Positions 22,901 through 25,664 of a stretch of 64,000 nt of DNA are shown here, piece after piece (the stretch's first letter is position 1; every line of letters starts with the position of its first letter). The notes under the pieces were generated by a model. It was not told the origin of the DNA, made no database searches, and worked only from the letters and a program-made list of their open reading frames with translations. The DNA lies in contig OZ025249.1 in NCBI GenBank assembly GCA_964019135.1, positions 38,887,759-38,951,758 on the forward strand, written 5' to 3'. The DNA is from Arenicola marina (Eukaryota > Annelida > Polychaeta > Arenicolidae). The position numbers and the translations under genes are program-made.

Positions 22901-25664
22901 CTAATCTTCCAACCTTGATTTAAATTGTCTTTAAGTTGAAATTCAAAAAAAAAAAGCAAGCTGCATGATAAGGAATCTGACTATATGATATGACTATATG
23001 AATAAGTGTCACAACCTCAGGACGTAGTGCTTCCGAAATGACAGACAGCTGTATACAATGGCAATGTACACATTTACAGAGCATTGTACTACTTACTCTG
23101 AGTGCGATCAGAAATTCATCAAACTGTAGTGAACCGCTGCCACTTTTGTCAATGTCCCCAAAGAGTGCTTCAATCTGTTGTTTCGCCATTTTCAAACCCC
23201 AGTCTTGCACTCCTTTCTCGAACTCCATATAACTTATATCCCGACTTTCATCATCATCCATGATATTAAAGGTTCTACAAAAAAATGATTAAGACTTAAT
23301 TTAAAGTGTTTAAGCTGTTAAACCTGATATACGTGTTTGTTCACAACTAAATTTTTCTGCACTGTCCCATATCACGATACACAACCTACCTATATGACAA
23401 TCAAACTAGTCCGTGTTCTATATATGGCATGGCATAAGAGCAAATAAGTACTATCTTTCCATATTCCAATACAATATTACATAAAAGATATTGCATGTCA
23501 TTTTTGTCCTATAACATATTTAAGGGTACCATAAGAACTAAAGCATTGGGAAGTTCTTAGTATTCTATATTTTTCAACATGTTAGAATGACACATTCTAT
23601 TACATTTCAAAGTATTACATCACCCACAAAAACAGGCATGGTTACTATTTATATATCAGATGTGCAACAATAGTCTGTAACATTGCATTGTCTTACATAT
23701 ACTAATTATTGTATCTGTGCTACAAACATACATAATCCCTACTTGCCGAATTCTTGACAAATACATTACAAACTAGAGATATATTATAACTATTTATGCC
23801 GCAAAAACCTGGATATAGCTATATATCGATCCAGATGGACACATAACTAAACGCTACACTCTAGCAGGGTTCGACTTTAACGCTCGTCCTATTGTCCAGG
23901 ACAAGTGATTTGTTTTGCCTGTCGGACAAATAAACATTTTCCTTTCCGGACAATTCCGGACAAATAACATTTCCGGACAAATAAAAGTTTTCCAAACAAA
24001 CTTTTAGACAAGTGTTTGCCAGACAAGCGTAAAGTGTTCCAAACTTAGGTAACCAGAGTTCTTTTTATTAGTTTTAATTGGTTCATTTCCAAGTACGCTT
24101 ATACTCTTGTCTGATTTGTCATGGCAACCAAGTGCACCTATTTGCAAATATTACACGGAACAGGGTTTATGATACTTTTCAGTCATTCAAGACAAGTCAT
24201 ACTGAAAGTATACACAAATACAAACCTTACAAGACCCCTGACGCCAAAAGGCGCAGTAAGTTCTCGAAGCAGTTCCAGTGGACTCTTTGCATTCTTCTTT
24301 TCCTCTTCAAGGGCGGAGCTAGAATTTTAATTGAATTGAATTGAATTGAAACCAAAGCAAAGTGTGTGTGTGGGGGGGGGGGGGGTGTAATTGAAACATG
24401 CTACCAGAGGGGGGGGGGGGTCAAAAGTGACCGGGTATGGTTAGATGGGAACCGAAAATTCCAATGTTGCTCCTTTTGCGTATGACATGCTCTAACGTTA
24501 GGCTGTGTCGACGAGCAACAAATTCCTGCCAGGCTTCTTTCGGACAGGGATAATGACTGTTATCCTCAAAAGCGACTCGCGCCACTATGTTAATTATATG
24601 GATGCAAATGCATCTCTCACAAAATACTGAACGAGTCATTATATTGCGCTTGAGTAACTATATCGACATATGTTTACATGTACATATACAGCAATGAACA
24701 CTATGCTCTCATGACGTAGTTCCCCGCGTAGTGTCCTTGTCTGTGATTGGTTAATAGGCGGTCAGGAATAATTAAATGTCAGCGTCCACCGAAAGTACTC
24801 ATATGGATGACAATATGTGTTTTGATGCCTTGAATCTTAATTTAGGCTAGATACGTATAGGCTTATTACGACCGAACCTTTGGTCGGATTAGGCATTCTC
24901 TTTAAGCGCATTGCAGATAACTAACGAGCAGGGATACATTAAGTATCACAATTAAGTCACACTCATTTACGGCCTTTGCGGCGCCTGACTATATTAAAGG
25001 TCGCTCAAGCGTCCACCTCGCACAATTCCAGTCGCAATCTTGCTTTCGGTGAACATGCGGCAAGTCACAAGGTGTGGCGTTCTCTGTCCGAATATTGGTT
25101 CATGCGGCCTCGCCGCTCGGCTCCGCGCATGTTTACATTCACAGCCGCTTTATAACCAGCAAGCAAAAAGATATGTTTTTTTCCGCATTCATTGAACTTA
25201 GAGTGCAGATATATGGACCACTGGTCTAATCCATGCACTGACAGCATAATCAAGACTGCGATTTCGAAGACTAATTATTCAATCTCAGAGATTGATTTCT
25301 GCGGAGTTCATGCGCCACTTTGCGCAATATATTTCCTGATAGCGCATGTATACATATATATGGTAAAGCGTCGAAACCGCACATGGCGTCCGCTAATATG
25401 ATAATTAATCACTGCAGTCTGTTATCCATGTGTGCTATACCACAATACAAAAAAGTCCACCCTCTTATGCCATCATGCGCCAGTTTGGCAAGGTATTTTT
25501 CAAGTACGGCTTAAACATTAAAATACTTACGGATCGGGTTGTATTGTGGGGTGGAGTGGTGAAATCGTTACCGCCGCAACCCCTGGATGCGCAGTACTGA
25601 AAATACTCAGCAGCAACTGAGAAACGAAAACGCCAAGGACCGGTGCCAATATAACGCGTGCCAT
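19993..25664 (-). CDS. CAPSL: Calcyphosine-like EF-hand protein, copy A (diverged; possible chimeric start)
   Basis: Calcium-binding EF-hand protein. Exons clear by homology to copy B: exon 5 19993-20094 (ends NAWKI, stop), exon 4 22205-22414 (EF3 [12 protein letters not shown]), exon 3 23097-23274 (EF1 DDDESRDISYME, EF2 DKSGSGSLQFDE). The equivalent of copy B's start exon survives at 24226-24318 (EEEKKNAKSPLELLR), but its first ~15 codons including ATG are replaced by repeat-derived sequence, and it has lost part of the conserved CLARG motif in frame. TTCTAG just before 24318 can serve as acceptor. Upstream, 25531-25664 is an open exon with ATG, hydrophobic core (VILAPVLGVFVSQLLLSIFS) and GTAAGT donor, ending in phase 2, the phase this acceptor needs. 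Joined, the model is open for 238 aa. The downstream exons are confident; the first two are inference. A pseudogene is the main alternative. Confidence 0.6.
20284..21248. mobile_element. DNA element with AAGACGAAAATC end, copy 2
   Basis: It begins with a perfect hairpin, AAGACGAAAATC-TC-GATTTTCGTCTT, and matches 13334-14346 along most of its length (AATGGCAATCGTCAGGCT, TTAACATGGGACCCTACG, GCAGTCGGTACTAACA). Its far end is lost, replaced by an A-run and G-rich sequence. It lies in intron 4 of calcyphosine copy A and is absent from the corresponding intron of copy B. Confidence 0.75.
21318..21425 (-). mobile_element. tRNA-derived SINE head (family B)
   Basis: The reverse strand reads TGGAGTAGTGGTTAGCGCAC followed by CCGACCG, a pol III A-box-like segment matching the SINE at about 33440-33583 (TGGCGTAGTGGTTAGCTCAC, CCGACCG). 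A long poly-C run adjoins it. No complete element ends were found. Confidence 0.5.
21642..22041 (-). mobile_element. TTAA-flanked non-autonomous DNA element, 400-bp copy
   Basis: The left end AGTTGCATGTCGAGCTCTTT and the right end CTGACATGCAACT form terminal inverted repeats. One side is followed by TTAA, the other by TTAT. It matches 42079-42470 in the opposite orientation. It lies inside intron 4 of calcyphosine copy A. The flanks (ATTGGACCAAGAAGGT before, AGATTTCCAG after) are contiguous in copy B near 36657-36760 without the element, so it inserted after the gene duplication. Confidence 0.75.
22667..22870 (-). repeat. tRNA-SINE-like 100-bp repeat, two copies (calcyphosine copy A, intron 3)
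   Basis: Two units with the GATGGCTGGCCTGGCA core at about 22687 and 22787. On the reverse strand each has an A-box-like TGGTGGTTAGCGCGCCCGG or its derivative. They are homologous to the nine-unit array in intron 3 of copy B and occupy the equivalent intron. Confidence 0.7.
23868..24049 (+). mobile_element. GGACAA-rich MITE-like repeat, copy 1
   Basis: Contains TCCAGGACAAGTGATTTGTT, repeated CCGGACAAATAA motifs and GACAAGTGTTTGCCAGACAAG near its end. An inverted copy is at 46460-46590. It lies in intron 2 of calcyphosine copy A. Ends are not precisely defined. Confidence 0.5.
25531..25664 (-). CDS. Candidate signal-peptide exon (possible new first exon of calcyphosine copy A)
   Basis: Reading leftward, ATG at 25664 opens 44 codons plus two bases and ends at a consensus donor GTAAGT (25525-25530). 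Residues 4-22 are hydrophobic, followed by small residues (STAHPG) and a Pro-rich tail (SPLHPTIQPDP), as in a secreted protein N-terminus. No other exon for it is recognisable before the calcyphosine copy A exons, and its phase-2 end matches the acceptors at 24318 and 23274. It could instead belong to an unrelated gene whose other exons I cannot see. Confidence 0.45.

Follow-up and report, generated by a model that had tools for sequence, protein, structure and literature searches.

In a 64,000-nucleotide stretch of the Arenicola marina genome (GenBank assembly GCA_964019135.1, contig OZ025249.1, positions 38,887,759 to 38,951,758 of the forward strand; hereafter the window, with coordinates counted from its first letter) lie two related EF-hand gene copies on the minus strand. 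One, copy B, is a calcyphosine-like (CAPSL) gene, and the other, copy A, is on its sequence a 5'-truncated, partial tandem duplicate of gene B that probably still codes for protein. We propose, at what we judge to be about even chances, that copy A has taken as its new start an upstream exon with the character of a signal peptide (exon S), giving a secreted or membrane-anchored EF-hand paralogue. What can be read directly from the DNA is the truncation, a kept reading frame, uneven evolution among the exons, and an exon S that is signal-peptide-like, matched in phase to copy A and preceded by a TATA-like box. The locus is compatible with splicing of S to A; both the splicing and the secretion of the product are inferred. 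The gene models of the two copies were reconstructed via protein matching and their coordinates are collected in Table 1.

As we envisage it, transcription would begin near 25740, exon S would be joined to A2-A3-A4, with the first-exon remnant A1 skipped or at times included, and the product would enter the secretory pathway, a CAPSL-type EF-hand protein being converted in this way into a secreted or membrane-anchored paralogue. Rather more tentatively, we suggest that a start-less duplicate of a CAPSL gene, which we take to be of ciliary type, may have been rescued by a signal-peptide exon drawn from single-copy, apparently non-coding flanking sequence, and may later have evolved as a secreted protein, with an EF-loop 2 lacking two acidic ligands and with two cysteines in the S-A chain.

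Copy A is a truncated duplicate of a CAPSL gene

Copy B is an intact CAPSL gene and the parent of copy A. Its model gives 208 amino acids (aa) with either of two terminal exons, B4 or B4', and residues 1-208 align, full-length and collinearly, with residues 1-208 of the calcyphosin-like protein chain of PDB 11yj (E 3.2e-82). The two terminal exons are both intact, with 79% protein identity, a synonymous divergence (Ks) of about 1.6 and a ratio of nonsynonymous to synonymous divergence (dN/dS) of 0.08, so that the pair is old and under constraint and would offer two different C-termini. Further PDB matches of copy B are named RIB22, RIB57 and DMIP20, which we take to be proteins within ciliary microtubules. 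CAPSL itself we assume, as a premise brought to this analysis and not a result of it, to be a protein of ciliated cells, probably axonemal, rather than a generic cytosolic sensor.

Copies A and B are collinear, and their homology ends at window positions 24309 and 40981, respectively, inside the ancestral exon 1; copy A therefore has no ATG there. An in-frame TAA stands directly upstream of the remnant A1, in which the family-conserved segment CLARGxxGIKGLGR is degraded, with a gapped alignment and its own start codon gone. The first codons, leader and promoter of B have no detectable DNA counterpart in 24310-27500, where four B stretches fall inside the score range of 40 mononucleotide shuffles, and its first 23 residues, compared as protein with 17300-31500, recover just the known remnant and chance-level matches. 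That the 5' half of exon 1 now lies on the far side of the repeats was rejected on these shuffle-level DNA scores and weak protein matches. That the ancestral first exon of copy A lost its ATG, as an earlier note on this DNA had claimed, is borne out by the end of homology inside exon 1 and by the failure to find the B head.

At the other end of the gene, A4 and its 3' flank (19757-20140) match the B4' region (32335-32726) at 77.7%, and since the copies are collinear and this last exon and flank match B4', copy A descends from a unit running from B1 to B4'. No second terminal exon was found in copy A, which has an AATAAA of its own at 19521. The EF-hand core is CAPSL-homologous: copy A matches Pfam EF-hand_7 (E 7.2e-18), and residues 54-238 of its 238-aa model, which includes exon S, align to residues 21-208 of the 11yj chain (E 3.6e-58).

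The same note held that the head was lost to repeat sequence. There are indeed repeats at the breakpoint and farther up; a truncation in the course of duplication would explain it just as well, and the case for repeat-mediated loss, as against a head that was never copied, is circumstantial. The TTCTAG said to have been created at the repeat edge as an acceptor-like site is present on the minus strand at 24324-24319; as an acceptor it is weak, with 8/16 pyrimidines against 13/16 at the exon 2 acceptor. Between S and A there is also old dispersed-repeat debris, recognised in a genome comparison in which 40 of 157 candidates were scored.

Evolution of copy A

Over 1389 aligned bases from eight intron and untranslated segments, the two copies share 81.7% identity and differ by 97 insertions or deletions (indels), 76 of them frameshifting. 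These counts were made with low gap costs and are probably too high, for which reason one half, one quarter and one eighth of the intron indel rate were used as expectations. Exons 2-4 of copy A (486 coding bases compared) have neither a frameshift nor a stop, where about 13 frameshifts would be expected at half the intron rate. With 0.1-0.2 substitutions per site, half the intron rate gives exons free of both a joint probability of 1e-7 to 3e-7, a quarter of it 7e-5 to 3e-4 and an eighth of it 0.002-0.007. For exon 3 the dN/dS between A and B is 0.30 (bootstrap 0.13-0.75). Because the frame has been kept and exon 3 is constrained, copy A is probably a living gene in need of a new start.

Relative-rate tests place most of the change on the side of copy A, with 22 residues unique to A and 8 to B when CAPSL is the outgroup (p 0.016), 15 and 6 with the C17 paralogue (p 0.08), and 22 and 2 with the C20 paralogue (p 4e-5). 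With the CAPSL outgroup the excess in A comes from exon 2, where the counts are 10 to 1, and from exon 4, where they are 8 to 1; exon 3 shows none (4 to 6). Inspection by eye finds two acidic ligand positions altered in EF-loop 2 of copy A, D to S and D to Q. The 238-aa S-A chain has exactly two cysteines (175 and 188), both in exon 3, one of which is without counterpart in B.

A candidate signal-peptide exon

Exon S is an open stretch of 134 nt with the favourable start context AAGATGG, and no ATG intervenes between the TATA-like box and the start. Its leader is a candidate signal peptide, strongly hydrophobic, with a mean hydropathy of 2.73 over 10 residues by our own calculation and small residues at -3/-1. 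Left unspliced, S would be a 45-aa mini open reading frame (ORF), the stop of which (CCG TAA) overlaps the donor. In the 867-Mb assembly S was found once, with just the self match both as protein (E up to 10) and as DNA (E up to 1), and a living donor gene was rejected accordingly. Because no other copy of S was detected in the genome, S was probably recruited from neighbouring single-copy sequence, not copied from a living donor gene.

The frequency of S-like units, taken as ATG-to-donor stretches no shorter than 25 codons, was estimated under a loose definition (phase 2, a GTRAGK donor and the presence of a leader) and a tight one (hydropathy of at least 2.7, phase 2 and GTAAGT). The genome background consisted of 20 stretches of 10 kb at hand-picked round coordinates, making 400 kb of strands that include 2700 N. 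Loose units number two on the two strands of the window, S being one of them, and two in the 400 kb of other genome strands; second-order Markov sequence yields 11 in 2 Mb and third-order sequence 55 in 10 Mb, a third-order rate that predicts 0.04 for the 7.5 kb separating the two copies and 0.7 for both strands of the window. Tight units are absent from the 400 kb of genome strands and occur once in 2 Mb of second-order and once in 10 Mb of third-order sequence. When the start context is added to the tight definition, none is left in the 10 Mb of third-order sequence.

An exact match to the RFX X-box consensus, RYYNYYATRRNRAC, lies at 41303-41316, about 280 nt upstream of the start of B, and none with up to one mismatch occurs in 25530-26400, the S promoter region. 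This distribution fits a ciliary parent with ciliary control lost in A; it was not used as evidence, since the window contains the motif at five sites.

Proposed joining of exon S to copy A

Spliced in the order S, A1, A2, A3 and A4, the exons would encode 238 aa and end in a single stop, confirming the open reading described in the earlier note, and S joined directly to A2-A3-A4 reads 207 aa. S lies about 2.3 kb upstream of A2, and agreement in phase between S and A is by itself a one-in-three chance. A loose screen from S down to 17400 admits 40 phase-2 acceptors, four of them with a strong tract. These four are 24536, at no known exon; 24304, in the remnant and out of frame; 23274, at A2; and 22403, inside A3 and in frame. 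Of the four, A2 alone coincides with the native boundary of an exon backed by homology, and another exon partner for S was rejected on that ground. A junction of S to A2 appears likelier than one to the remnant A1, since the remnant acceptor is weak (the 8/16 pyrimidines given above) and the CLARGxxGIKGLGR segment is degraded. We regard S as the best candidate for the new start of copy A. Of the capture of a signal-peptide exon by a decapitated copy, as first put forward, the decapitation and a credible signal-peptide first exon stand, and the repeat-mediated loss is circumstantial.

S might instead be the first exon of another secreted gene, or a single-exon peptide of 45 aa, in either case not joined to A. 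The promoter-like and leader features that S has of its own would suit such a gene, as would the stop that the unspliced exon meets at once. We nevertheless think it improbable, given that there is no better partner down to 17400 than A2, the sole native boundary among the strong acceptors, and that of 22 other ORFs of at least 55 aa below S on the same strand none reached the Pfam cut-off, three lying beneath it at E 0.03-0.06.

Copy A might also be driven by a promoter in the old intron 1 and begin at the in-frame ATG of A2 (that of NIMDDD), giving an N-truncated cytosolic protein to which S is unrelated. This ATG has a good context (AATATCATGG) and TATA-like words are found at 23646-23655. 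Such words are, however, frequent on the minus strand (five in 10.5 kb, the S box included), and a start at this position would remove the helix preceding EF-loop 1; we give this explanation little weight.

An explanation absent from the earlier note is that copy A serves as a downstream alternative cassette of B, with B1 spliced past B2-B4' into A2-A3-A4, or B3 spliced into A4. No new start would be needed and the product would retain the parental N-terminus. A2 can take up the phase 2 in which B1 ends, A lies downstream of B on the same strand, and B already has two old, constrained terminal exons. The transcript would, however, have to extend over about 21 kb, past the AATAAA at 31728 between B4' and copy A and through about 7.5 kb with repeats, and exon S and its TATA-like box would be left unexplained. 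We consider splicing from B unlikely, though the least unlikely of the alternatives to a start at exon S.

Points against the proposal and decay as an alternative

Several observations weigh against exon S as the start of a living, secreted copy A. The thresholds of the tight definition, with its hydropathy of 2.7, were set post hoc, with S in view. Five TATA-like words, the S box among them, occur on the minus strand in 22001-32500 (10.5 kb). The hydrophobic run of S, of about 19 residues, could act as a membrane anchor. On its exon side the S donor reads TCC and not the MAG consensus, so that of the exon with a consensus donor in the earlier note the open 134 nt, the phase and the GTAAGT hold, and the exon side does not. 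Codon usage gives S a log-odds score of -15.9, with 68% of 11,714 open background stretches scoring as well or better, in a test trained on 655 codons from EF-hand paralogues alone and for that reason ill-suited to a hydrophobic leader. A scan of 24319-31800 with a relaxed donor found two overlapping phase-2 ATG-to-donor units at 27667-27788 which are conceivable first exons of A, though neither passed the leader test. Finally, the dN/dS between A and B is 1.19 in remnant exon 1, 1.07 in exon 2 and 0.80 in exon 4, and for exons 2-4 joined it is 0.61 with a bootstrap interval (0.37-1.02) that includes 1. Because these values are high and the joint interval spans 1, constraint is clear just in exon 3, and copy A is best described as readable yet fast-changing, with exons 2 and 4 accelerated.

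These values raise the question of whether copy A is a decaying pseudogene with a frame intact by luck, S being a chance open stretch. Its acceleration relative to B (22 unique residues against 2 with the C20 outgroup), the near-neutral exons 1, 2 and 4 and the poor codon usage of S are all as such decay would predict. The constraint on exon 3, and a chance of escaping stops and frameshifts of 1e-7 to 3e-7 at half the indel rate and still of 0.002-0.007 at an eighth, speak against it, and we doubt that copy A is a pseudogene.

Comparison with known systems

The S-A locus would belong to a known class, the partial duplicate with recruitment, for which the type III antifreeze protein is a precedent. 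A review of duplicate genes (PMC3449122) gives the name partial duplicate 'with recruitment' to a truncated copy whose ORF has a unique part that matches no donor in the genome, with Hun and fog-2 as examples. Copy A resembles these in that its similarity to a single parent breaks off within the ORF and S has no genomic donor match; it differs in that the recruited part is a signal-peptide-like exon. The type III antifreeze protein is traced there, after Deng et al., to partial duplication of sialic acid synthase, its signal-peptide exon having been made from 54 nt of flank and six old codons. The likeness to copy A is that a partial duplicate of a gene for a cytoplasmic protein has a signal-peptide first exon derived largely from its 5' flank and that its product is exported. 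In the same account, however, the origin and export of the antifreeze protein are presented as established and the duplicate has been amplified, whereas splicing and export of S-A are predicted; copy A would have, besides, an EF-hand parent and a new exon attached through a phase-2 intron.

With respect to its own family, the EF-hand core of A aligns to the calcyphosin-like protein (PDB 11yj), whereas A differs from this protein and from calcyphosin (PDB 3e3r) in having no N-terminus of that kind, a degraded CLARGxxGIKGLGR segment and two changed ligands in EF-loop 2. Protein subcellular relocalization, as presented in a survey (PMC3879971), likewise concerns duplicates kept through a change of protein location, for which lower death rates are reported there; it is a general survey class and does not concern CAPSL. 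Searches of the literature for calcyphosin with tandem duplication, and for calcyphosine-like protein as a microtubule inner protein, found no papers, and for calcyphosin as secreted or with a signal peptide nothing was on topic as judged by paper titles. The portions consulted of PMC4415241 and of PMC10973386, which is on CAPS2, a different protein, have no bearing on S-A.

Table 1. Positions of copies A and B, of exon S and of the sequences around the breakpoint in the window.
Feature	Position	Strand	Basis
TATATAAG, TATA-like box that precedes the candidate start codon by about 100 nt	25763..25770	-	motif scan
Exon S, candidate first exon coding for a signal peptide; 44 codons and 2 further nt, ending in phase 2 at a GTAAGT donor	25531..25664	-	sequence
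Remains of old dispersed repeats lying between S and A, with 71-81% identity to the compared genomic copies	24440..24910		genome comparison
C-rich, CA and AATTC simple repeats adjoining the breakpoint, ending TTCTAG	24319..24420		sequence
A1, exon-1 remnant, open in frame, no in-frame ATG, phase-2 end	24226..24318	-	A/B alignment
A2, exon 2 (EF-hands 1-2), strong acceptor taking phase 2	23097..23274	-	protein matching
A3, exon 3, covering the region of EF-hand 3; dN/dS to B 0.30	22205..22414	-	protein matching
A4, terminal exon, from B4', 3' flank common to both	19993..20094	-	A/B alignment
B1, intact first exon of the CAPSL-like parent, phase-2 end	40889..41025	-	protein matching
B2, parental exon 2	38473..38650	-	protein matching
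B3, parental exon 3	36925..37134	-	protein matching
B4, terminal exon, first alternative	35920..36021	-	protein matching
B4', the other alternative terminal exon, from which A4 descends	32578..32679	-	protein matching, A/B alignment

Other features of the window

Intron 1 of copy B contains a long palindrome (40355-40855), whose arms, 128 nt (86%) and 67 nt (96%) long, flank a centre of 109 nt, and which is like a foldback element or a miniature inverted-repeat transposable element (MITE). In intron 2 of B a 100-bp unit is repeated 7.6 times in tandem (37406-38163), and only about 196 bp of it is present in intron 2 of A (22663-22858). By eye this unit seems tRNA-like; ARAGORN finds no tRNA in the window.

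Large minisatellites occupy 280-6468 and 14982-17355, as arrays of 29 bp repeated 214 times and of 31 bp, and are extremely asymmetric between strands, with a GC skew of -0.58 to -0.67 in 1-6000 and of +0.42 to +0.69 in 14001-18000. On the minus strand at 29319-29969 there is an open stretch of 217 aa which by eye is like the C-terminal part of a long interspersed nuclear element (LINE) reverse transcriptase and has no Pfam match. At 45146-45342 a 33-bp unit is repeated six times with 100% matches, which suggests that this array is young. The COX1 gene of the genome gives a sensible translation with mitochondrial code 5, which points to a protostome, probably a lophotrochozoan, and away from the echinoderm code; a search for the Bindin family found nothing, but gave no signal in any control genome either.

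Implications

If the proposal is true, the locus would be a compact and readable case of a headless duplicate surviving through the gain of a targeting exon, with the parent, the breakpoint, the debris and the candidate exon all within 22 kb. An EF-hand case would then join the worked examples of conversion from a cytoplasmic to a secreted protein.

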